DNA from: Crystallibacter degradans
GTDB lineage: Bacteria > Actinomycetota > Actinomycetes > Actinomycetales > Micrococcaceae
Assembly (NCBI RefSeq): GCF_012952295.1
Contig: NZ_JABBCH010000005.1
Location: 62,001-126,000, forward strand
Direction of reading: 5' to 3'
Length of the DNA stretch: 64,000 nt
A program made the position numbers and the translations under genes. Below the pieces are notes generated by a model. That model was not told where the DNA came from. It ran no database searches and saw only the letters and a program-made list of their open reading frames with translations. Below, piece by piece: positions 22,188 through 59,193 of the stretch (position 1 is the stretch's first letter; every line of letters starts with the position of its first letter).

Positions 22188-25100
22188 ATGAGTCTGAACC
22201 GGCGGCTGATCTCCAACGGCTTCAACGATTTGGAGAAGAGCACACGCTTTCTCGAATCGTCCGAACTCGATGGGGTGGACCAGCAACGGCTTTTTTCCGG
22301 GTTTGCTTACGCCGCCGATCCGGACCTGGCCCTCGTATCCTTGGTCCGGCTGCTGGAGCGGCATCCTCAGCTGGCCGAACTGGTCAACGCCGGGGAAGAC
22401 GAGAGCGAGGCGCTGTTCCGGCTGCTCGGCTCCTCGGAGGCATTGGCCGAATTTTTGCTGCGCCGGCCGGAGCATCTGGACGTTCTTTCGGCCAAGGTCA
22501 GCCCTGAACCGGGAGCGGTGCCGGCAGACAAGCTGCGCGCCTCACTGCTGAAGTCAGTCGGGGCCGATCCTTCCGCCGAGCAGCCGCTGGCCGCCCTGAG
22601 CGGCAAGGAGGCCTACAGCCTGCTGCGGTCCACCTACCGGCGGCACCTGGCCGAACTGGCCATCCGCGATCTCGGCGCGGCCTCTCCGGTGGACTATATG
22701 CCCTCCGTGGGACGCGAGCTGGCGGATCTCGCGGCGGCGGCGATTGAGGCCGGGCTGGCTGTCTCCCGCGCTGAACTGGCCGCGCGGTTCGACCCCGAGG
22801 AGATTGCGGTCGTGCGCCTGGCCGTGATCGGCATGGGCAAATGCGGCGCGCGCGAACTCAATTACATTTCCGACGTCGACGTGGTCTACGTGATCGAAGC
22901 CGATGGCATGGACGAGGCGCACGCCTCCACCATCGGCACGGCCTTGGCCGCCGGGATGAGCAGGGCCGTCTTTTCCGCCGGACCGGAGCCCGGCCTGTGG
23001 GAAGTGGACGCCAATCTCCGTCCTGAGGGCAAGGAAGGCCGGCTGGTCCGTACGCTCGAATCCCACCTGACTTACTACAAACGGTGGGCCCAGAGCTGGG
23101 AGTTCCAGGCGCTGCTGAAGGCGCGCGCCATCGCCGGGGACCCAGACCTGGGCCGGCGGTACGAGGAGGCCGTAGCACCGTTGATCTGGAACTCATCGGA
23201 ACGGGATGGCTTCGTCGAGTCCGTGCAGGCAATGCGCGGACGGGTGACGGAGAACATTCCGGTGCATGAGCGCGGCCGCCAGCTCAAACTCGGCCGCGGC
23301 GGGCTGCGTGACGTGGAATTTACCGTCCAGTTGCTCCAGCTCGTTCATGCCCGGGTGGACGAAACGCTCCGGGTCCGGGACACCACTACCGCCATCGCGG
23401 CCTTGAGCGCGGCTGGCTACATTGGCCGCTCCGATGCACGGGAGTTCGACGAAGCCTACCGCTATTTGCGGGTGCTGGAACACCGCATCCAGCTGGTCCA
23501 GCTGCGCCGGACGCATTTGATGCCCGAGGGCGACAATGCCTTGCGTGCGCTGGCCAAATCCTCGCTCGGCTCGCTGGAAACGCAGCGGCCCGGCCCCGAA
23601 GCCCTGCTCCAGAGGTGGCAGCGGACCAAGCGCCGGGTACGCGAACTTCACGAACGGATCTTCTACCGCCCGCTGCTGGTCTCCGCCGCCAACCTGAGCG
23701 CGGACGAAGTCCGGCTCACGCCCGAAGCTGCCCAGGCCCGGCTCGCCGCATTAGGGTACGTAGATCCCCGCGGAGCGATGCGCCACATCGAGGCATTGAC
23801 CGGCGGAATCAGCCGGCGGTCCCAGCTGCAGCGCCAGTTGCTTCCCGTCCTGCTGGAATGGATCGCCGACGGTGTCGACCCGGACTCCGGCCTGCTCGGA
23901 TTCCGGCGGCTCAGCGAGGCGCTGGGGGAGTCGCACTGGTATCTGGGCATGCTCCGTGACTCCAGTTCGGCAGCGGAGCGGCTTTGCCACATCCTTTCCA
24001 GCAGCCGCTTCATTACTGACCTGCTGGAAGTCTCGCCGGAGTCTGCGGCCTGGCTGGGCTCCGACAAGGACCTCGTTCCGTGGTCGTTCGACGCGCAGTG
24101 GTACGAGATCCGGCACAAGCTGGCCCGCCATCAGGACCCCAAGGCGGCTATGCGCCTGATCCGGCTGATCCGCCGTCGCGAAACGCTGCGGATAGCCATC
24201 GCGGACAGCTCAGGCCTGCTGGATCAGCGGCAGGTCGGCATTGCGCTCTCCGATACGGACCGGGCGGCCGTTCTCGGTGCCCTGCACGTTGCCGAGGCAG
24301 CTGTCTTCGCGGAGGAGGACCAGCTGACCAACCTCCTCGTCGTCGCCATGGGACGACAAGGCGGCAGGGAGATCGGTTACGGCTCGGACGCCGATGTCAT
24401 GTACGTGCACAAGCCGCTGCCCGGCGCTGACAACGATGCGGCCCAGCAGCAAGCTATGAAGATTGTTTCGCAGATTTCCGCCCTGCTCCAGCAGCCATGC
24501 AGCCCGCCTGTGCTCGCCGAGCGCACCCTGGAACTGGATGTGTCGCTGCGTCCGGAGGGGAAGAACGGCCCGATCGTGCGTTCGCTCGACTCGTACCGGG
24601 AGTACTACCAGCGGTGGTCCCTGATCTGGGAGGCGCAGGCCCTGTTGCGTGCCCGGCCCATCGCCGGCGACGACGACCTCGCGGCCGAGTACATCGCACT
24701 GATCGATCCCATCCGTTACCCGGCAGACGCCGGCCCGGACGACGTCCGCGAGATCCGACGGATAAAAGCCAGAGTGGAATCCGAGCGCCTGCCACGCGGC
24801 GCGGATCCATCCCGGCACCTCAAGCTGGGCCGCGGCGCGCTGAGCGATGTGGAGTGGCTGGTGCAACTGCTCCAGCTGGAACACGCGCACCGGATACCCG
24901 CACTACGGACAACCGGCACCATGGAGGCGCTGGAAGCGATCGGCGAGGCAGACCTGCTCCCGGCTGCCGATGTGCTCACGCTGCACCAGAGCTGGTCCCT
25001 GGCGAGCCGGATCCGTTCGGCAAACATGATCTGGAGTGGAAAGAACGCGGACCTGCTGCCCTTTTCGCGGCGGGATCTGGAAGCCGTTGCCCGCTGGTGC

Positions 25101-37748: not shown

Positions 37749-38108
37749 TCAGTTCCAGAGGGTGGCGAGGGCTATGTTGAGCAGGGCCAGACCGCCTACT
37801 GCATGTGCCAGGCCGGTTGAGATGGGTTCATTGGCCTTGTACTTGCGGCGGCCGATGAAGGCCAGCACGCCGACAACGAGGGCGATGACGAGCTTGATGC
37901 CGAGCTTGACGTAGTTGGGGTCAGTGAAGTCATCGGGCATGGCCGGGATAAGTCCCATCATGATGACGCCGGTGATCAGTTGGAGCATGGCGCCGTCGAA
38001 CTGGCGCGGGTGGACGGTCGGCTTCTTCATGTTGCCGATCCAAATGCCCACGATCATGGCCGCACCTACGATGTGCAGAAAGACAAAAATGCTGTAAAGG
38101 ATCTCCAT
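37749..38108 (-). CDS. Small four-helix membrane protein of unknown function
   Basis: The 119-residue protein has four hydrophobic segments: about 2-24 (ILYSIFVFLHIVGAAMIVGIW), 42-56 (LITGVIMMGLIPAM), 66-85 (VKLGIKLVIALVVGVLAFIG) and 100-118. FLHIVGAAMIVG resembles the opening helix of small haem-protein-like integral membrane families, with a His in helix 1 and another in VHPRQFDG; this is only suggestive. Homologues are common in Micrococcales as uncharacterised proteins. ATG 38108 follows a TAAGCT -10 by 7 bases, so it is probably leaderless and transcribed alone. Confidence 0.75.
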   Translation of the reverse strand: MEILYSIFVFLHIVGAAMIVGIWIGNMKKPTVHPRQFDGAMLQLITGVIMMGLIPAMPDDFTDPNYVKLGIKLVIALVVGVLAFIGRRKYKANEPISTGLAHAVGGLALLNIALATLWN

Positions 38109-38121: not shown

Positions 38122-38220
38122 TCGGCTCTGAGCTGGGATTACGCCGCGCCACGGAGCAGCAGCAGCCAAACTTTCTACGAACTGTAGTAAGAACCCATCA
38201 GGACCATGGCCGTTAAGCCG

Positions 38221-38281: not shown

Positions 38282-40054
38282 CTAGAGACCGAGGTCAGCT
38301 TCGAAGGCTCCCTCTTCCAGACGGGTGCGCAGCGTCTGCAGGAAGCGTCCTGCATCGGCGCCGTCGACCAGGCGGTGATCGTAGGTCAGCGACAGGTACA
38401 TCATGGAGCGGATGGCGATCGAGTCGTCGCCGTTCGCGTCGGAGACCACCACCGGGCGCTTGACGATCGCACCGGTGCCGAGGATTCCTACCTGCGGCTG
38501 GTTGATGATCGGGGTGTCGAACAGGGCACCCACGCTGCCGATGTTGGTGATGCTGAACGTGCCGCCGGACAGCTCGTCCGGGCCGATCTTGTTGGTCCGC
38601 GTGCGGTCCGCAACATCGGCAATCTTGCCGGCAAGACCGGCCAGGTTCAGGTTTCCGGCGTCGCTGATGACCGGCACGAGCAGGCCCTTGTCCGTGTCCA
38701 CTGCAATCGCCAGATGCTCGGCGTTGTGGTAGGTGATTTCCTGCTTCTCTTCGTCGTAAGAAGCGTTCAGCTTGGGGTGCTGCTTGAGCGCTTCCGCGAC
38801 TGCCTTGGCGATGAACGGCAGGAAGGTCAGCTTGGCGCCGTTCTGCTCCTGGAAGGAGTTCTTGGCCTTGGCACGAAGCTTGGCAACCTTGGTCATGTCC
38901 ACTTCGTGGACCTGCGTGAGCTGCGTGGAAACATCCAGCGACTCGCGCATGCGGCGGGCAATGACTTGGCGGATGCGCGGGGCCTTCTCCACCGTGCCGC
39001 GCTTGCCGGCACCGGCAGCACCCGGAGCGGACGCCGCGGCCTTGCCTGCCGACGGGGCGGCCTGGGCTTCAGGGGCCTTGGACGACTCGGCAGCGGAGAG
39101 CACGTCCTGCTTGCGGATACGCCCGCCGACACCCGTGCCCTTCACGGAGGACAGGTCGATGCTGTGCTGGTTGGCCAGCTTACGCACCAGCGGAGTCACG
39201 TACCCGGCGTCGGAACCGCCGGCAGCTTCGGCAGGCTCGGCCTGGGCGGGGGCTGCCGGTGCTTTCTCAGGAGCGGGGGGCGCTGCCTGCTTGGCGGGAG
39301 CTTCTTCCTTGGCCGGAGCGGGTTGTTCGACCGGCTCTTCGCGCTGCTGCGCAGGTGCGGCGGCAACGGGCTCGGCCTCTGCCGGAGCTGCCTGGGCGGG
39401 GGCGCCTGCGCCGGAGCCGATGACGGCCAGGACGGAGCCGACCTCGGCGGTCTCGTCCTCGTTCACCCGGATCTCCTGCAGCGTACCGGCTACCGGGGAG
39501 GGAATTTCGGTATCGACCTTGTCCGTGGAGACCTCAAGCAGCGGCTCGTCGACGGCTACCTCATCGCCGACCTGCTTCAGCCAACGGGTGACGGTGCCTT
39601 CGGTGACGCTTTCCCCCAGCGCGGGGAGCGTGACCTCGGTGCCCTCGCCCGAGCCGGACGCGCCCTTTGCGCCGGACTCGGCAGCCGGAGCAGCCTCCTG
39701 CTTCGGAGCCTCTTCGGCGGGAGCTTCCTGGGCCGGTGCCTCCTGAGCCGGAGCTTCCTGAGCCGGAGCTTCCTGAGCCGGAGCGGCCTCGGCCGGGGCA
39801 GCATCGCCGGAACCTGAACCGTCGCCGATGCGGACCAGCGCGGCGCCGACGTCCGCAGTTTCGTCTTCGGCGACGAGGATTTCCTCGATGACACCCGCAA
39901 CCGGGGACGGGATCTCGGTATCGACCTTGTCGGTGGAAACTTCGAGCAGGGGCTCGTCTACTTCTACCCGGTCACCGACCTGCTTCAGCCAGCGGGTAAC
40001 GGTACCTTCGGTGACACTTTCACCGAGGGCGGGCAAGTTCACGGTTTCAGACAT
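38282..40054 (-). CDS. sucB: Dihydrolipoyllysine acyltransferase E2 with two lipoyl domains
   Basis: The 590-residue E2 has two lipoyl domains, each with [14 protein letters not shown] (first lipoyl-Lys 43; second near 181). They are joined by long Ala/Pro/Glu/Gln-rich linkers. An E3/E1-binding domain ([20 protein letters not shown]) and the catalytic core follow, ending with [16 protein letters not shown], which carries the His-Asp catalytic motif. Automated names call this the succinyltransferase of 2-oxoglutarate dehydrogenase. In mycobacteria the orthologous DlaT serves pyruvate dehydrogenase, so the 2-oxoacid is uncertain. ATG 40054 follows AAGGAG; a TAAGCT -10 is at 40124-40129. lpd lies just upstream. 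Confidence 0.93.
39720..39784. repeat. 15-base tandem repeat in the sucB linker
   Basis: About four copies of a 15-base unit (GAGCCGGAGCTTCCT on +) encode the QEAPA pentapeptide repeat between the lipoyl domains. Copy number is likely to vary between strains. Confidence 0.8.
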
Positions 40055-51597: not shown

Positions 51598-52551
51598 CTA
51601 CCCGGCCAGCCCCGGGGCCAGGAGCAGGACGGTCGGCACGGCCAGCAGCAAGGCCGAGCAGCCCAGCACCATTGCTTGCGCTGGCTTGCCCAGGGGCGGC
51701 GACGGCGACAGCAGCCGGTGCAACCGGTGGGCAGTGCTCAGGGCCTCAGACTCTTCCGGGGTCAGCAACTCTTTGGCCGGAGCGCCGACGCCGGACGGCC
51801 TTTCGCCGCTAGCCACCACGGCCACGGCGCGGATCAAGGTTTCCCTGTTCGCGGTTCTGAGTGCCCCGTCATCCGCGAGCATCTCGATCAGTTCGTTGAC
51901 GGCCTGCTGCGCGAGCTGCGATGTCGGCAGCCAGGGAAGCGCGGAGCGCCAGGCGGCAAAGGCCCACAGCAGGAGGTCGTGGCGCTGGTTCAGATGGGCG
52001 CGCTCATGGTTCAGAACCGCCTCGAGCTCTTCGGGCCGGAGCAGCTCCAACAGACCTTCCGAGAGCACTGTAACGGAGCCAGCTCCACCGGGGAGGCAAT
52101 ACGCAACAGGTGCGGGATGGCTGATCACCAGGGTCTTGGGAGAGTTTTTGACCGGAGAACTGAGCAGGTTCAGCAGGTCACGGTGCTTGTTGCGTTGCTT
52201 GCGGATCCGGTAATAAGTCAGCAGCAGCGTAAAGACCAGATGTACGCCCAGCAGCAGGGCAGCGCTGAGCGCGAAGACATGGATCAGGTCCAGGCCCGGT
52301 GCCGGCGCGTAACTAACCAGCAGCCCTGCCAGCCCTTGAAGCCCGGCCAGGAGGTTCTCGCCCAGCGGTTCCAGCCCCCATGTCAGCATGGCGCCGATCA
52401 TAGAGAGCCCGCCGGCCAGCGCGATGGCTTGCCACAGCACCAAGGCCGTGACGGGTGCTCGTGCGGTCCACTTTGCCCGGGCGAGCAAAACCGGCACCGG
52501 CCACGCCAAAATGACCGCCATGGCGGCCAGGAGGTACGAGGCCCAGAACAC
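51598..52551 (-). CDS. M56-family (BlaR1/MecR1-like) membrane metalloprotease
   Basis: The 317-residue protein has membrane segments at about 2-24, 34-58, 68-80 and 90-113, and the zinc motif HERAH at 182-186 within AVLNHERAHLNQRHD. A further hydrophobic segment lies at the C-terminus (MVLGCSALLLAVPTVLLLAPG). Unlike staphylococcal BlaR1/MecR1 it has no extracellular penicillin-binding sensor domain, so the signal is probably not a beta-lactam. It lies 6 bases after the blaI-like gene and is presumably the protease that inactivates it. It is convergent with parE. Confidence 0.85.
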   Translation of the reverse strand: MFWASYLLAAMAVILAWPVPVLLARAKWTARAPVTALVLWQAIALAGGLSMIGAMLTWGLEPLGENLLAGLQGLAGLLVSYAPAPGLDLIHVFALSAALLLGVHLVFTLLLTYYRIRKQRNKHRDLLNLLSSPVKNSPKTLVISHPAPVAYCLPGGAGSVTVLSEGLLELLRPEELEAVLNHERAHLNQRHDLLLWAFAAWRSALPWLPTSQLAQQAVNELIEMLADDGALRTANRETLIRAVAVVASGERPSGVGAPAKELLTPEESEALSTAHRLHRLLSPSPPLGKPAQAMVLGCSALLLAVPTVLLLAPGLAG

Positions 52552-52557
52552 TAAGGG

Positions 52558-52944
52558 CTACGCAGTCAGCAGCTTACGCAGGGTTTCGGCTTCCTGTTCG
52601 GAAACGCTGCCGATGAATTTAGCGAGAACGGCCTCGCGGTCCGGCGCCGATCCAAGCACCTCGTTCATCAACTCCACCGTGTGTTCCTCACGGCTGGTCA
52701 CTGCACGATAGCGGTGCGGACGGATGTCCCGTTCGCGCTGTACCAGGCCCTTCTTCTCCAATCGGGACAACACTGTGAGCACAGTCGTTACTGCCAGTTC
52801 CTTGCCATCCGGGCTTGAATCCGTTTTCCGTGCCAGACGGTCGCGCAGGGCGTTTGCGGTAAAAGCGATCTCCGCTGGATCTTCCGAGTCGGCCTGCCAC
52901 AGCAGGTCCATAACCGCGCGTTCCAGCTCCCCAAGAGTTGCCAT
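52558..52944 (-). CDS. BlaI/MecI/CopY-family transcriptional repressor
   Basis: The 128-residue winged-helix protein has GELERAVMDLLWQ at the N-terminus, the wing and recognition region LAVTTVLTVLSRLEKKGLVQRERD, and a C-terminal dimerisation part ending EAETLRKLLTA. It pairs with the adjacent M56 protease as in BlaI-BlaR systems. Two identical dyads TTCTAC-N5-GTAGAA lie between its start and the divergent cydA, so it probably represses cydABDC and/or itself. A clear ribosome-binding site is not seen; GGGAAATAG precedes the ATG. Confidence 0.88.
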   Translation of the reverse strand: MATLGELERAVMDLLWQADSEDPAEIAFTANALRDRLARKTDSSPDGKELAVTTVLTVLSRLEKKGLVQRERDIRPHRYRAVTSREEHTVELMNEVLGSAPDREAVLAKFIGSVSEQEAETLRKLLTA

Positions 52945-53041
52945 CTATTTCCCTCGTCCTACCAAACTAGCTGCTCGACCCGGCGGCTCAGGCTGCCGGG
53001 ATGTGGTCTCACTCTCTAATTTACCGCGTTTGCAGAAATTG

Positions 53042-53058
53042 TTCTACACTACGTAGAA
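53042..53058. promoter_or_regulatory. Putative BlaI operator 1
   Basis: TTCTAC-N5-GTAGAA with perfect 6-base arms, 97 bases before the cydA start and 98 bases before the blaI-like start, measured from each near edge to the start codon. Confidence 0.68.
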
Positions 53059-53066
53059 ACTTGTAC

Positions 53067-53083
53067 TTCTACGGCTTGTAGAA
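53067..53083. promoter_or_regulatory. Putative BlaI operator 2
   Basis: A second TTCTAC-N5-GTAGAA with identical arms, centred 25 bases from operator 1 and 55 bases before the cydA start. Confidence 0.68.
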
Positions 53084-53138: not shown

Positions 53139-54725
53139 GTGGAAGCCCTGGAAATCGCCCGCTGGCAATTCGGCGTCACCACCGTCTACCACTTCCTGAT
53201 GGTGCCGTTGACCATCGGCCTCGGCCTGACGGTGGCCGTAATGCAGACAGCTTGGTACCGGACTGGCAAGGACCAGTACCTGCGGATGACCAAGTTCTGG
53301 GGCAAACTTTTCCTGATCAACTTTATTATGGGCGTGGCCACCGGCCTGGTGCAGGAATTCCAGTTCGGGATGGCGTGGAGTGAATACAGCCGCTTTGTCG
53401 GAGATGTCTTCGGTGCGCCGCTGGCGCTGGAATCGCTGCTGGCCTTCTTCGTCGAGTCGATCTTCCTCGGCCTGTGGATCTTCGGCTGGGGCCGGCTCCC
53501 TAAGGCCATTCACCTGCTGAGCATCTGGGCTGCATCGCTGGCAACCATGGGCTCGGCCTACTTCATCCTCGCGGCCAACTCCTGGATGCAGCACCCGGTC
53601 GGCGTCGAAATGATCGACGGCCGTCCTGTCATGGTCGATATCTGGGCCGTCCTCACCAACAACACGCTGCTTGTGGCCTACCCGCACACCCTTTTCGGAG
53701 CGTTCTCCGTGGCCGGCGGCTTCCTGCTCGGCATCAGTTGGTACCACCTGTGGAAGCGCCGCCGTGACGGGATCGACACCGTGGGCCCCGACGGCAAGGT
53801 TATTGTTGGCTCCAGGCCTGCCATCGGCCGCGACGCCGCGGACCATAGAGTCTGGCTGCGCTCCCTGCGGATCGGCGCCGTCGTCGCTATGGTTTCGTTC
53901 GGCGGGGTCGCCCTGACCGGTGATCTGCAGTCCAAGCTCATGTTTGAACAGCAGCCAATGAAGATGGCTGCGGCCGAGGCGGCGTGCCATGACGGGACAG
54001 GATTTTCGATCCTCTCCGTCGGTGATCTGGGTTCCAATGACTGTGATGATCTGGTTGCGGTTGTCGAACTGCCGGGGTTGCTGTCCTTCCTGGCCAACGG
54101 CGATTTCACCACCGAAATCCGCGGAATCAATTCGCTCCTGCCTGAGTACCAGGAGAAATTCGGCACCCATTTGCCGGACAACCCGATCTACGGCGAGCGC
54201 GCCGGAACTGAAATCGACTATGTCCCTGTCATGGAGGTTACCTACTGGGGTTTCCGAATGATGATTACCTTCGGCATGCTGGCCGCTGGCGCCGCCCTGG
54301 TTGCGCTGTGGATTGTACGCAACGGGACCGTGCCACAGTCCAAGTGGCTGATGCGCCTGGCTGTGTTCGGGATTCTGGCCCCGTTCGGCGCCAACTCAGC
54401 CGGCTGGATCTTCACCGAAATGGGCCGCCAGCCCTTCGTCGTCGCGCCCAACCCTGATCCGAACGGGATCGACAATGTCTTCATGTTCACAGCTGCCGCG
54501 GTCTCGCCGGGCGTCTCACTGGCCGAGCTTGTCTTTTCGCTGGCGGCCTTCGCCCTGGTGTACGGCGTGCTGCTGGTGGTGGAAGTGAAACTGCTCTTCG
54601 CCTACTGCCGCGGCGGGGTGCCATCTGCCATGCCCGAACTGCTGCACGAGGACAAAGATGACGACGGTGACGAGGGCCCCGGCAAGCGGAAGGACGACGA
54701 CGATGTGCTTGCCTTTGCTTACTGA
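53139..54725 (+). CDS. cydA: Cytochrome bd ubiquinol/menaquinol oxidase subunit I
   Basis: CydA is the haem- and quinol-bearing subunit of the high-affinity terminal oxidase. The 528-residue protein begins EALEIARWQFGVTTVYHFL, with the distal haem-ligand His in the first membrane segment. LVQEFQFGMAWSEYSRFVGDV, SWMQHPVGVE and EQQPMKMAAAEA follow. The quinol (Q) loop is of the short type. GTG 53139 matches family starts and has GAAGGGG upstream; the in-frame GTG at 53109 would add ten residues. The acidic tail (KDDDGDEGPGKRKDDDD) is unusual. It starts the cydA-cydB-cydDC operon. Confidence 0.95.
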   Translation: MEALEIARWQFGVTTVYHFLMVPLTIGLGLTVAVMQTAWYRTGKDQYLRMTKFWGKLFLINFIMGVATGLVQEFQFGMAWSEYSRFVGDVFGAPLALESLLAFFVESIFLGLWIFGWGRLPKAIHLLSIWAASLATMGSAYFILAANSWMQHPVGVEMIDGRPVMVDIWAVLTNNTLLVAYPHTLFGAFSVAGGFLLGISWYHLWKRRRDGIDTVGPDGKVIVGSRPAIGRDAADHRVWLRSLRIGAVVAMVSFGGVALTGDLQSKLMFEQQPMKMAAAEAACHDGTGFSILSVGDLGSNDCDDLVAVVELPGLLSFLANGDFTTEIRGINSLLPEYQEKFGTHLPDNPIYGERAGTEIDYVPVMEVTYWGFRMMITFGMLAAGAALVALWIVRNGTVPQSKWLMRLAVFGILAPFGANSAGWIFTEMGRQPFVVAPNPDPNGIDNVFMFTAAAVSPGVSLAELVFSLAAFALVYGVLLVVEVKLLFAYCRGGVPSAMPELLHEDKDDDGDEGPGKRKDDDDVLAFAY

Positions 54726-54772: not shown

Positions 54773-55792
54773 ATGGAAACCCTGCCTACTCTTTGGTTCA
54801 TCATCATTGCCTTCTTCTGGACCGGCTACCTGTTCCTGGAGGGCTTTGATCTGGGCGTCGGCATGCTCATGCGCGGTTTTGCCCGCAACAACACCGAGCG
54901 CCGAGTGCTGCTGAATACCGTAGGACCGGTCTGGGACGGCAACGAGGTCTGGCTGGTCACGGCCGGTGCCGCCACCTTCGCCGCTTTCCCGCACTGGTAC
55001 GCTTCCCTGTTCTCTGCCCTGTATCTGCCGCTGGTCTTCGTGCTGCTCGCCTTGATCTTCCGCGCGGTTGCCTTCGAGTACCGCGGCAAGATGGACTCCG
55101 ACCGCTGGCGCAACGCCTGGGACTGGGCCATTGTCCTTGGCTCCCTCGTGGCCGCCTTCGGCGTCGGAGCCATGCTGGCGCTGACCACCACGGGGCTGCC
55201 CTTGAACGAAAACGGGGACCGGGTGGGCGGCCCCTTTGCCTGGTTCAACGGCTATGCGGTCCTCGGCGGTCTGGCAGTTGTCTTCTTCTGCATTGTGCAC
55301 GCGGCAGCGTTCCTGGCGCTGAAGACCGACGGCGACATCCGGACCCGTGCCCGCAAGCTGTTGCTTCGCTGGCTGCCTGTCGCCCTGCTGCCGCTGGCGC
55401 TGTGGGCCGTCGCGGTAGTGGTGGCCGGCGGCAAATCCGTCACCTATGTGACGCTGCTGCTGGCCGTCCTCGGCGCCGCGTTCGCGTGGATGATGGCCCG
55501 GCGGGAACGGGACGGCTGGAGTTTCGGGGGCCTGGGTGTCTTCCTGCTGGCGGGCACCGCGACCATTTTCACCGCGGTGTTCCCGAACGTGCTGCCGTCC
55601 ACCATCGACTCCGCCTACAACCTGACCGTCACTTCCGCGTCCTCGTCGGAATACACTCTGGGCGTGATGAGCGTTATTGCCGCCTTCGGGATTCCGGCAG
55701 TACTGGTGTACCAGGGCTACACCTACTGGGTGTTCCGCAAGCGCGTCAGTGCCTCGTCGATTCCGGCTGCCCACGCCGTCGTCCCGCAGTGA
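54773..55792 (+). CDS. cydB: Cytochrome bd oxidase subunit II
   Basis: CydB pairs with CydA in the membrane oxidase. The 339-residue protein has eight or nine hydrophobic segments. The family signatures FLEGFDLGVGML, GPVWDGNEVWLVTAGAATFAAFP and RAVAFEYRGK near the N-terminus are intact. ATG 54773 has GGAGAACTGAA upstream, 47 bases after cydA. Its stop overlaps the GTG of cydDC (GTGA), showing translational coupling. Confidence 0.95.
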   Translation: METLPTLWFIIIAFFWTGYLFLEGFDLGVGMLMRGFARNNTERRVLLNTVGPVWDGNEVWLVTAGAATFAAFPHWYASLFSALYLPLVFVLLALIFRAVAFEYRGKMDSDRWRNAWDWAIVLGSLVAAFGVGAMLALTTTGLPLNENGDRVGGPFAWFNGYAVLGGLAVVFFCIVHAAAFLALKTDGDIRTRARKLLLRWLPVALLPLALWAVAVVVAGGKSVTYVTLLLAVLGAAFAWMMARRERDGWSFGGLGVFLLAGTATIFTAVFPNVLPSTIDSAYNLTVTSASSSEYTLGVMSVIAAFGIPAVLVYQGYTYWVFRKRVSASSIPAAHAVVPQ

Positions 55793-58700
55793 AGCCCCTG
55801 CTTCCCGTCAGCGCCACGAGCAGGCGGGCGCTCTATCTGCTGGGCCTGCTGGCCGCGTGCAAGGCGCTTGGTCTCATTTTGCTGGCCGACGCCGTCGCCA
55901 GCGGAATTGCCGGACTGGCCGCCGGCGCCCTCGACGCGCAGCACGTTATGGTGCTGGGAGCGGCCGGCGCTGTGGTGCGTTCGCTGTCCGTATGGGCTCA
56001 GGAAACGGTGGCCCAACGCGCCGCCGCCGGCGTCAAGCAGGAGCTGCGCGCGGACCTGACCCGGCGGATTATCGACGACGGCGGGGCAAACGCCGCGGCC
56101 GGCGCTGGGAACAGTACTGAAGCCCGCGCGGCAGACAGCAGCGCGGGCGTTGGCGCAGGGAGCGGCGCCCTGACCGTCCTGGTGACGCGCGGTCTGGATT
56201 CGCTGGATAACTACTACAGCAAGTACCTTCCCGCCTTGGTTACCTGCGCCGTCGTGCCTTTGCTGGTTGGTCTGCGCATTCTTGGTGCGGACTGGATCAG
56301 TGCGCTGGTTGTGGTGCTGACCATCCCGCTGGTGCCGGTCTTCATGATTCTGATCGGCCAGCACACCGAGGACAAGGCCCAGGAAGCCGCCGCGGCGTTG
56401 GACCGGCTCTCGGACCACCTGCTGGAACTGGCCCGCGGGCTGCCGGTACTCGTTGGACTCGGCCGTGCCGCTGCCCAGACGCGGGCGCTGGGCGACGTTG
56501 CCGCCGAGTACCGCAGCCGCACCCTGGCCACCCTGCGCGTCGCGTTCCTGTCTTCGCTGGCGCTGGAACTGATTGCCACCATTTCGGTGGCCGTCGTCGC
56601 GGTGTTCATCGGCGTGCGGCTGGTGCACGGCGAGATGCCGCTCGAAGCCGGCCTGCTCGCCCTGATTCTGGCTCCCGAGTGCTACCAGCCGCTGCGCGAT
56701 CTGGGCAGTGCGCACCATTCCAGCGAGGATGGACTCGAAGCGCTCAAACGCAGCAACGCGGTGCTCGGCTCGCCGGCAGGCCGGCCACTGGTGCGCGCTG
56801 ATGCGCAAGCGGGTTCGGGGGACATTGCCGTGTCGAACTTGAGCATCCGCTATCCGGGGCGTGCGGAAGCTGTGGTCGATGGGCTGGACTTCAACGTTGC
56901 TGCCGGCGGAATCGCGGCCCTGGCCGGCCCCAGCGGCTGCGGCAAAACCTCTGTCCTGGAGGTGCTGGCCGGTGTACGGCGGGACGGGGCGGGTGCGGCG
57001 GTTGCCGGCTCCGTGGCAGGAGTCGGCGCGGACCAGATTGCCTGGATTCCGCAGCACCCGGTGCCGGCGGAGCTGACTGTGGCGGACGAGATCGCACTGT
57101 ATGCCGGCCTGCCGGCTTCTCCCGCGGGGCGACAGGCTGCCGAGCGTGCGCTGTCACAGGTCAACGGGACCGCTTTGATCGACGCGGCCACCGGTGACCT
57201 CAGCCCGGGCGAACTGCGGCGGGTCGCCGTGGCCCGCGCCCTGGCCCGGGTGGACAACGTGCCCGGAGTGCGGTTGCTGCTGGCAGACGAACCGACCGCC
57301 CACGTCGATGCGACCAGTGCCCGCGCCATCGAAGACGCCCTGAAGCGGCTGCGCGGACGCATCACCATAGTCCTGGTGGCACACGATCCCGCCACCGCAG
57401 GACTTGCGGACCAGTTGATTGAGATCGGTGCCGGCGCCAGTCATGCCTGGGGAGCCACACATCCGGCTCCGGCAGCCGGACCGGAAGCCGAAGCAACTGT
57501 CGCCGTCCGGGGCGCCGTCGATGAGGGCGAACCTGCACAGCGGCCGTCCCTGTGGCGGAACCTGGCAATGCTGCGCCCCTGGAGCAGGCCGTTTGTTGCC
57601 GCGCTGCTCTTGGGGCTGGGCGCTACGCTGTTCGCGGTCTCGCTGAGCGGCCTGTCCGGCTGGCTCATCGTCTACGCCAGCGAGCAGCCGCCGATCCTGT
57701 ATCTGATGACCTCCATAGTCGGGGTGCGGTTCTTCGGCCTGGGCCGTTCCGTGCTGCGCTATCACGAGCGCCTGCGCCTGCATGATGCCGTCTTCCAAAG
57801 TACGGACCGGCTACGGACCCGCCTGTGGAACGGGCTGCTGCAGCGTCCGGCCGGCTGGCGGAAACTTGCCCGGGGCGGGGGAGCTCTGGAACGGCTGATC
57901 GGCGACGTCGATGAATTGCGCGACGTCGCCCCGCGCGCAGTGTTCGCGCCGTTGGTGGGAGTCTTGACCGCCGTGGCGTCGTGCGTGGCTACCGCGCTGC
58001 TGCTGCCGTCCGGCCTGGTGTGGCAGATACTGCTCGCCGCCGTCGGGATTCTCGTGGCGCCCACCCTGACCCGCCTGGCCGACCGTTCTGCGCAGGCCGC
58101 GACGGTAGGCCTCAAGGGGGAGTCGCTGAACGCTTTTGCACGCCTGCTTGGTGCGGCCGCGGATCTGCGGGCCAATGCCGCGGAGGCATCGCTGCTGAAG
58201 CGGACCCAGGACCTGGATTCCAGAACGACGGCGGCGCTGCAGCATAGCGCGTGGGCGCAGGGACTCGGCCAGTGCCTGACGGTCCTGGCTTGTTCGCTCA
58301 CCGCCCTGGTGATGGTTACCCAGTCTGCTGGAGCAGTGCCCGGAGCCGCCGCCGTCGTGATTTTGATGCAGTTGGCGCTGGTCGAGCCCTACGCGGCAGT
58401 CAATACCGCCGTCCAGCAATGGGGCGCCTGGCGCGGGCTGGGGGAGCGGGTGCTGCCGGAACTGGGTACCGAGGACCTACCTTCCAACAGCATCGAGGAT
58501 TCCCAGGTGCGCGGGGAGTTCGCCTCGCTAAGCCTTGAGCAGGTTTCGTATTCCTATCCCGGGCAGTCCCGTCCCGTCTTCAGCGGACTGGACCTCGAGC
58601 TGCGGCCGGGGCAGTGGCTGGCGGTGACCGGCCCGTCCGGCAGCGGGAAGTCGACCCTGCTGGGCGTGCTGCTCGGGTTCCTTCAGCCGGAGCAGGGCCG

Positions 58701-59193
58701 GTATCTGGTGAACGGCCAGCCGGTGGAGTCCGTTACACCGGGCGCCGGCAGAGGCATTGCCTGGACGCCGCAGGAAGCCCACTTGTTCAACTCGACCTTG
58801 CGCGCGAACCTGATGCTGGCGCGCAGCAAAGCCGATCCTCCATCGGAAGCCGAGCTGCTCAAGGCGATTGACGACGTCGGCCTTGGTAGCTTCGTTGCAG
58901 GCCTGCCGGACGGACTTGATACCCGTATTGGGCCGAACGGGCATTTCCTCTCCGGTGGGCAGCGCCAACGCGTCGCGGTGGCCCGTGCGCTGCTGACCCA
59001 CGCGGAGGTGCTGCTGCTGGACGAGCCGACGGCGCATCTGGACCGTGAATCTGCGGTAGCGCTGCTGGCCGACCTCCGCGCGGCGCTTGCGGGCAAGGCG
59101 GTAGTCATGGTCACCCACCGGCCTTCCGAGGCGGAGTTGTGCGAGCTGCGGCTGGAACTGGGTTCCCCGGCGCCGCTGCCTGCTTTAGCCTAA
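55789..59193 (+). CDS. cydDC: Fused CydD-CydC thiol-reductant ABC exporter
   Basis: CydDC exports glutathione- or cysteine-like thiols needed to assemble cytochrome bd. Normally two genes, here it is one 1134-residue protein. The N-half has a membrane domain, Walker A GPSGCGKT (380-387), signature DLSPGELRRVAVARAL and Walker B LLLADEPTAHVD. The C-half repeats this with Walker A GPSGSGKST (948-956), LSGGQRQRVAVARAL and LLLDEPTAHLD. The first-half signature LSPGE departs from LSGGQ. An Ala/Gly-rich insert (about 95-125) lies between early membrane helices. GTG 55789 overlaps the cydB stop; the upstream open frame is a cydB shadow. Confidence 0.93.
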   Translation: MKPLLPVSATSRRALYLLGLLAACKALGLILLADAVASGIAGLAAGALDAQHVMVLGAAGAVVRSLSVWAQETVAQRAAAGVKQELRADLTRRIIDDGGANAAAGAGNSTEARAADSSAGVGAGSGALTVLVTRGLDSLDNYYSKYLPALVTCAVVPLLVGLRILGADWISALVVVLTIPLVPVFMILIGQHTEDKAQEAAAALDRLSDHLLELARGLPVLVGLGRAAAQTRALGDVAAEYRSRTLATLRVAFLSSLALELIATISVAVVAVFIGVRLVHGEMPLEAGLLALILAPECYQPLRDLGSAHHSSEDGLEALKRSNAVLGSPAGRPLVRADAQAGSGDIAVSNLSIRYPGRAEAVVDGLDFNVAAGGIAALAGPSGCGKTSVLEVLAGVRRDGAGAAVAGSVAGVGADQIAWIPQHPVPAELTVADEIALYAGLPASPAGRQAAERALSQVNGTALIDAATGDLSPGELRRVAVARALARVDNVPGVRLLLADEPTAHVDATSARAIEDALKRLRGRITIVLVAHDPATAGLADQLIEIGAGASHAWGATHPAPAAGPEAEATVAVRGAVDEGEPAQRPSLWRNLAMLRPWSRPFVAALLLGLGATLFAVSLSGLSGWLIVYASEQPPILYLMTSIVGVRFFGLGRSVLRYHERLRLHDAVFQSTDRLRTRLWNGLLQRPAGWRKLARGGGALERLIGDVDELRDVAPRAVFAPLVGVLTAVASCVATALLLPSGLVWQILLAAVGILVAPTLTRLADRSAQAATVGLKGESLNAFARLLGAAADLRANAAEASLLKRTQDLDSRTTAALQHSAWAQGLGQCLTVLACSLTALVMVTQSAGAVPGAAAVVILMQLALVEPYAAVNTAVQQWGAWRGLGERVLPELGTEDLPSNSIEDSQVRGEFASLSLEQVSYSYPGQSRPVFSGLDLELRPGQWLAVTGPSGSGKSTLLGVLLGFLQPEQGRYLVNGQPVESVTPGAGRGIAWTPQEAHLFNSTLRANLMLARSKADPPSEAELLKAIDDVGLGSFVAGLPDGLDTRIGPNGHFLSGGQRQRVAVARALLTHAEVLLLDEPTAHLDRESAVALLADLRAALAGKAVVMVTHRPSEAELCELRLELGSPAPLPALA
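59186..59191 (+). promoter_or_regulatory. Possible -10 of the GNAT gene, leaderless
   Basis: TAGCCT within the last codons of cydDC ends 6 bases before ATG 59198. The GNAT gene could also be read from the cyd transcript. Confidence 0.4.

Follow-up and report, generated by a model that had tools for sequence, protein, structure and literature searches.

Gene content of the cyd locus

The stretch of DNA analysed here, called the window, spans 64,000 nucleotides. Within it, genes for a BlaI-type repressor and a membrane metalloprotease face the cytochrome bd genes across an intergenic region that holds two inverted repeats (dyads). The features of this region are as follows.

51598-52551, minus strand: BlaR1-type (M56/M48) membrane metalloprotease, sensorless, 317 aa, with HERAH at residues 182-186, E223, and ADD at 226-228
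52558-52944, minus strand: BlaI-type repressor, 128 aa (Pfam Penicillinase_R, 71.4 bits against a cut-off of 22.6)
53042-53058, no strand: dyad 1, TTCTAC-N5-GTAGAA, TTCTACACTACGTAGAA, perfect arms; proposed BlaI operator
53067-53083, no strand: dyad 2, TTCTAC-N5-GTAGAA, TTCTACGGCTTGTAGAA, perfect arms; proposed BlaI operator
53139-54725, plus strand: cydA, cytochrome bd subunit I (Cyt_bd_oxida_I, 493.5 bits for the longer ORF)
54773-55792, plus strand: cydB, cytochrome bd subunit II (Cyt_bd_oxida_II, 343.6 bits)
55792-59193, plus strand: cydDC, a single ORF of 1133 aa (TIGR02857 CydD, 699.7 bits; TIGR02868 CydC, 561 bits)

The gene order is the one given by the original prediction, with the repressor and protease genes on the minus strand divergent from cydA-cydB-cydDC on the plus strand. 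For cydA, the GTG at 53139 is preferred as the start over the ORF from 53109, and relatives align from 53139. CydD and CydC are fused in one continuous reading frame.

The best PDB match of the window BlaI in a phmmer search is the solved structure 2g9w (E 3.7e-15), which we take to be Rv1846c. CopY/TcrY copper repressors are a related repressor family, and the window protein scores only 26 bits against the CopY_TcrY model TIGR02698, far under its cut-off of 121.95. A second BlaI-M56/M48 pair is present elsewhere in the same genome (L001, C41:12649-15984), and its BlaI is 40% identical to the window BlaI. This second BlaI was tried as the dyad binder and rejected: the 3336 bases of its locus contain no TTCTAC dyad at up to two mismatches, which speaks against it without being decisive.

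The protease matches Peptidase_M48 above the Pfam cut-off (41 bits) and Peptidase_M56 below it (26.8 bits against 31), with no other Pfam family at E <= 0.001. Its predicted fold combines the transmembrane and zinc-protease parts of BlaR1; the HExxH motif and the downstream glutamate are both found, and H182, E183, H186 and E223 are invariant among 29 aligned proteases. Two comparisons separate it from the Ste24/HtpX proteins of peptidase family M48: in the rows compared, its first membrane helices align with those of BlaR1 instead of ZMPSTE24, and the HtpX equivalog models give about 25 bits against cut-offs above 270. A PDB search by sequence alone returned nothing under E 0.03. The expectation that the protease lacks a penicillin-sensor domain was borne out, as the Pfam search at E <= 0.001 detected no such domain and the protein ends at residue 317, directly after its last helix (289-315).

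Both perfect dyads that had been predicted, 25 bases apart, are present. Their starts lie 25 bases from each other, their 5-base spacers differ, and 55 bases separate dyad 2 from the cydA start. In an alignment of the blaI-cydA intergenic region from eight members of the genus, including this one, all 12 arm positions of each dyad are invariant, and the mean column identity is 65%. A search of the intergenic region of this genome revealed no sigma-70-like promoter between blaI and cydA, and any overlap of the dyads with a promoter is thus hypothetical. With up to two mismatches, the window contains four matches to the TTCTAC dyad against 0.40 expected, and none of 100 shuffles reached four; the other two are a one-mismatch dyad at 38173-38189, which was absent from the original prediction, and a two-mismatch match at 22221-22237. 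Across the whole genome, six perfect dyads were counted against none for the reversed pattern. The window shuffles, the reversed-pattern counts and the co-occurrence with BlaI described below rule out a chance origin of the dyads.

Distribution of the dyads and of BlaI

To place the locus in its family, 149 genomes were sampled: BlaI is matched at 70 bits or more in 127, weakly in four and not at all in 18. Matches along the full cydA length occur in 135 of them, a total that takes in 133 genomes and also G042 and G066, in which cydA is more divergent and was matched in two pieces. The two genes are divergent in 114 of the 120 genomes that carry both, with a median gap of 209 nt. The six exceptions (G004, G035, G042, G066, G109 and G145) are cases of relocation: all seven cydA copies, G145 having two, keep at least two perfect dyads, and the blaI of G004, G035, G109 and G145 keeps one. 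At least one perfect dyad occurs in 126 of the 127 BlaI-positive genomes (683 dyads against 59 for the reversed control; G090 is the one without), and in two of the 18 genomes lacking a BlaI match (two dyads against three in the control). Fisher's test on this co-occurrence gives p = 3e-18, a value that overstates independence because the BlaI losses fall in three genera, so that the co-losses represent few independent events. The four genomes with weak BlaI matches belong to one genus (g11) and have one perfect dyad each, upstream of cydA; in the one examined closely (L311), the BlaI gene is separate from cydA and has an M48-type protease gene as its neighbour.

It is conceivable that the dyads belong to another regulator sharing the intergenic region, such as an NO- or redox-responsive factor. 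For example, hmp adjoins an Rrf2-family gene (92.3 bits; read as NsrR-like) with a dyad between the two, and the tie between dyad and BlaI in this organism is drawn from sequence comparison. Several patterns make this alternative very improbable. None of the 11 BlaI-less family genomes with cydA has a dyad, at up to two mismatches, in the 300 nt upstream of that gene; cydA keeps its dyads after relocation away from blaI; and between 3 and 15 dyads persist in the seven genomes where BlaI is found and cydA is not matched (G012 15, G025 5, G053 5, G057 5, G089 9, G107 9 and G138 3). A wider scan of contigs, taking one genome per species, points in the same direction. The tandem-dyad pattern was found at a minimum of 120 loci and, among the matches listed, cydA lies downstream at 105 of 120, its start 17-151 nt (median 40) from the nearest dyad, with a BlaI gene also present at 95 of these 105. 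Four of the ten cydA loci where BlaI was not seen (L235, L259, L271 and L289) end near the dyads. Also among the matches listed, the dyads of 11 of the 15 loci without cydA adjoin a Penicillinase_R gene above the Pfam cut-off (L176, L181, L183, L189, L194, L225, L234, L267, L269, L275 and L276), several of them in other phyla. The remaining four comprise a cytochrome b gene (L254), a BlaI-M56 pair with a heavy-metal ATPase (L248), dyads preceding a murD-like gene (L287), and what looks like a chance match (L199).

Synteny, joint loss, the persistence of the dyads at relocated cydA genes and their conservation at orthologues thus give strong support to a link between BlaI and cydA through these sites. 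Conservation of the dyads in related cyd promoters had been set beforehand as one of the tests of this link, and the dyads are conserved. From co-occurrence and conservation, we infer that the TTCTAC dyads are the operator of the window BlaI and that, very probably, BlaI acts at them.

The tandem loci are also uniform in geometry, with start-to-start spacings mostly of 24 (50 pairs) or 25 bases (39 pairs) among the matches listed. The 80 named rows among these matches include Arthrobacter, Pseudarthrobacter, Sinomonas, Cryobacterium, Leifsonia and Agromyces, as well as Geodermatophilus, Blastococcus and Pseudonocardia, a few Clostridia, a planctomycete and a verrucomicrobial bin. At five lower-GC loci (L181, L225, L267, L275 and L276), the tandem dyads stand directly before the Penicillinase_R gene, which in four of the five is followed by a long BlaR-like ORF; those of the lower-GC loci that carry titles are Clostridia and Oscillospiraceae. 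A separate observation concerns genus g12, where G012, with BlaI but without a cydA match, exceeds all other genomes of the 149 in its number of dyads; ctaB, SURF1 and sdhC are among its dyad genes, and its relatives G042 and G066 have 13 dyads each.

Outside the family, a scan of 296 genomes across the class found the TTCTAC dyad in 41, of which three belong to the family of this genome, nine to family f4, 25 to family f24 and four lie elsewhere. As a guess, f4, f24 and a further family, f10, may be Microbacteriaceae-like, Frankia-like and mycobacteria-like, respectively. In f24 the dyad precedes cydA (L330, confirmed by Pfam), CopC (L334) and hemE (L343); a link between an f24 dyad and a dehydrogenase E1 gene was discarded, since that gene begins more than 550 nt from the dyad. 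In f4 the dyad likewise precedes cydA and, at one locus (L328), a cydD-like gene standing on its own, whose incomplete protein scores 379.9 bits with TIGR02857 (cut-off 435). A variant dyad, TAC[TG]AC-N5-GT[AC]GTA, was found upstream of blaI, cydA and atpI, each in three of three f10 genomes, 28-44 nt before cydA and 223-237 nt before atpI, the latter within the end of the preceding gene. In one of these genomes, BlaI (L364) matches 2g9w at E 6e-67, and AtpI (L415) falls just short of its Pfam cut-off, with 25.0 bits where 25.1 are required. The argument from f10 is one of position and not of number, because the variant totals in the three genomes (5, 7 and 5) are near those of the reversed control (6, 5 and 2). 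Two variant dyads also lie between blaI and cydA in G188 (family f26). The resemblance to mycobacterial BlaI sites that the original prediction saw in the CTAC/GTAG half-sites fits these results, given that genomes with a 2g9w-like BlaI carry TAC[TG]AC dyads in three cases out of three, where the present system has TTCTAC.

A candidate regulon beyond cydA

The original prediction named cydA as the target, which is real but understated, since cydA is one target of a larger candidate regulon. Elsewhere in this genome, perfect dyads lie upstream of hmp (72 nt), which encodes flavohemoglobin, of hemQ (46 nt), which functions in heme synthesis, and of two further genes, the product of one being pyridoxamine-oxidase-like (11 nt) and that of the other having a VTT domain (38 nt). 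One-mismatch dyads lie upstream of ctaE (121 nt), resA (32 nt; resA-ccdA serve cytochrome c maturation), an atpI-like gene (57 nt) and sucC (85 nt, counted to the start of its longest ORF). For the atpI-like protein there is no Pfam match, and the next gene encodes ATP synthase subunit A (119.8 bits). Thus, sites upstream of both cyd and atp genes, the arrangement expected of a mycobacterial-type system, are present as sequence, the second with one mismatch. The one-mismatch dyad of the window belongs to the following pair of features.

37749-38108, minus strand: 119-aa membrane protein, dyad 64 nt upstream; proposed regulon member
38173-38189, no strand: dyad TTCTACGAACTGTAGTA, one mismatch; proposed BlaI operator, kept at the orthologue in three of three congeners (L390, L395 and L396)

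The 119-aa protein gene follows a gene for a sucB-like 2-oxoacid dehydrogenase acyltransferase (38282-40054, minus strand), and the protein itself matches Pfam DUF2231 at 17 bits, under the cut-off. In L400, a variant dyad lies 29 nt upstream of the gene for a distant homologue, which is 33% identical (E 1e-11 when the two sequences alone are compared). The kept dyad and this homologue suggest a respiratory role for the small membrane protein.

Orthologous conservation was used to separate credible sites from background. In all three congeners compared (G007, G085 and G136), cydA, hemQ, hmp, the VTT-domain gene, atpI, ctaE, resA and the 119-aa protein gene retain the dyad; sucC and a MurJ-adjacent protein gene do so in two of three, and the pyridoxamine-oxidase-like gene in one of three. 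A listed target is found at 32 of the 35 congener sites examined (of 49 sites) and none at the other three. Weak sites are much less informative: sites with at most one mismatch are barely enriched in the three congeners (17, 17 and 15 against 17, 13 and 13 for the reversed control), and sites with at most two mismatches number 93 in this genome against 190 for the control. Because these counts barely exceed or fall below the controls, one-mismatch sites of this genome without orthologous support (L069, L073/L075 and L076) were set aside, and only perfect sites and orthologously kept one-mismatch sites are considered credible.

Across 135 dyad loci (168 instances, some loci overlapping), hemQ is a dyad neighbour in at least 19 genomes, the MurJ-adjacent protein gene in at least 13 and hmp in at least 10, and the further neighbours among the matches listed include cytochrome c maturation genes, CopC, hemA, ctaC, ctaB, SURF1 and sdhC. 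The designation MurJ-adjacent reflects our reading of the gene next to this small membrane protein as MurJ-like. Several perfect dyads adjoin genes without a known respiratory role. Because the dyad precedes hmp, hemQ, ctaE-qcr, cytochrome c maturation genes, the atp operon and others in addition to cydA, the set looks like a respiratory regulon, and the BlaI family appears, from these sequence comparisons, to control respiration genes in Arthrobacter and several other actinobacterial groups.

The composition of this set also bears on the signal. One alternative is that the signal is specifically copper or heme status, with the copper-free bd oxidase and the heme and copper supply turned on when the heme-copper oxidase cannot be assembled. 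The dyad is found at CopC genes (L061 with its cluster, and L334) and, in at least one genome each, at ctaC, ctaB, SURF1, hemA, hemE and hemQ; a heavy-metal ATPase accompanies BlaI-M56 at L248; and the copper repressor CopY is a relative of BlaI, notwithstanding the low CopY_TcrY score of the window protein. In passages of one paper, a copper-starved sigC mutant of Mycobacterium tuberculosis raises cydABDC and rv1303-rv1305, and blaI is named in the same paragraph on raised regulators (PMC7924339). On the other side, hmp, sucC, sdhC and atpI fall outside the supply of copper and heme. This alternative, which is a form of the broader respiratory explanation with a narrower signal, is regarded as rather doubtful.

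Proposed mechanism and nature of the signal

Taken as a whole, the explanation that we hold with good confidence is that BlaI governs a respiratory regulon which the protease releases when aerobic energy conversion is impaired. Under this model, the dyads would be the operators of the neighbouring BlaI. BlaI dimers on the tandem pair upstream of cydA would hold down the bd oxidase and, through the other dyads, BlaI would act on hmp, hemQ, ctaE-qcrCAB, resA-ccdA, the atp operon and sucC. Impaired aerobic energy conversion would be the trigger upon which the sensorless protease, consisting of the transmembrane and zinc-protease part of BlaR1, inactivates BlaI, and the regulon would then be released. 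Inactivation of BlaI by this protease is probable in view of the predicted fold and active-site residues. The most conjectural element is the signal itself, for which the composition of the regulon and the missing sensor domain incline us moderately towards respiratory, heme or copper status and away from beta-lactams.

The system can be compared with the BlaI-BlaR pair of M. tuberculosis (Rv1846c-Rv1845c), which has a repressor of the same family, a sensorless BlaR, and cyd and atp promoters among its targets. The two differ in that the blaI-M56 genes are here divergent from cydA, whereas blaI and cydA are presumably apart in M. tuberculosis, and in that tandem TTCTAC dyads and a larger number of respiratory genes with a dyad are found here, whereas blaC is a target there. 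Passages of a 2017 eLife paper state that M. tuberculosis BlaI binds the cytochrome bd and ATP synthase promoters (PMC5473688, citing Sala 2009), and that the mycobacterial BlaR is without a sensor domain (PMC5473688); binding of BlaI to Rv1303 by EMSA is given in part of another report (PMC12565901). As BlaI binding to M. tuberculosis cyd promoters is described in those passages (PMC5473688), the BlaI-cyd wiring is of an already known kind. A regulon outside mycobacteria was not reported among the matches listed from the open-access literature, in which the Sala 2009 targets are represented through citing papers. The searches made found no printed account of the Micrococcaceae-type linkage to cydA, of the tandem arrangement of the operator, or of the breadth and distribution of the respiratory regulon.

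The mycobacterial data also raise the possibility that BlaI and its protease answer cell-wall damage or beta-lactams, as in Staphylococcus, with the respiratory genes forming part of a wall-stress programme. In the portions of PMC5473688 that concern M. tuberculosis, blaC is likewise under BlaI control, and blaR-blaI and cydAB respond to amoxicillin plus clavulanate by induction. Such a programme would also accommodate the dyad at the MurJ-adjacent gene, present in at least 13 genomes, and the tandem dyads before the murD-like gene at L287. These observations have to be set against the protease itself, which differs from Staphylococcus aureus BlaR1 in having no C-terminal penicillin-binding sensor, and against the dyad genes, which are largely respiratory, many of the identified targets being respiratory or heme genes. 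Furthermore, a search with PF13354 located two beta-lactamase-like places in this genome, one of them under the cut-off, and neither has a dyad at up to two mismatches in the stretches covered. A wall-stress signal is therefore considered unlikely. The sections of the eLife paper that deal with the beta-lactam response of M. tuberculosis describe it as still unexplained for a system without a sensor domain, and a redox link through WhiB4 is proposed there (PMC5473688).

It may even be, although we would put this at somewhat less than an even chance, that aerobic energy control is ancestral for actinobacterial BlaI-M56 systems and that mycobacterial beta-lactamase control is a later addition. 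On this reading, the sensorless protease would itself sense the state of the respiratory membrane, through electron flow or through the heme or copper available to the oxidases, and a single repressor would coordinate the genes for the bd oxidase, for bc1-aa3 and cytochrome c, and for heme and ATP synthase. The results on the regulon also give grounds for annotating BlaI proteins of this type as respiratory regulators instead of penicillin-resistance regulators. In this soil genus, the repressor, the protease and the main target stand side by side, the operator is easily recognised and candidate targets can be listed, and for these reasons the question of the signal is directly testable.

A further observation on the protease is that residue 152 is a cysteine, located in AYCLPG ahead of the HExxH motif and invariant in the 29 aligned proteases; a redox or metal contact at this position is possible.
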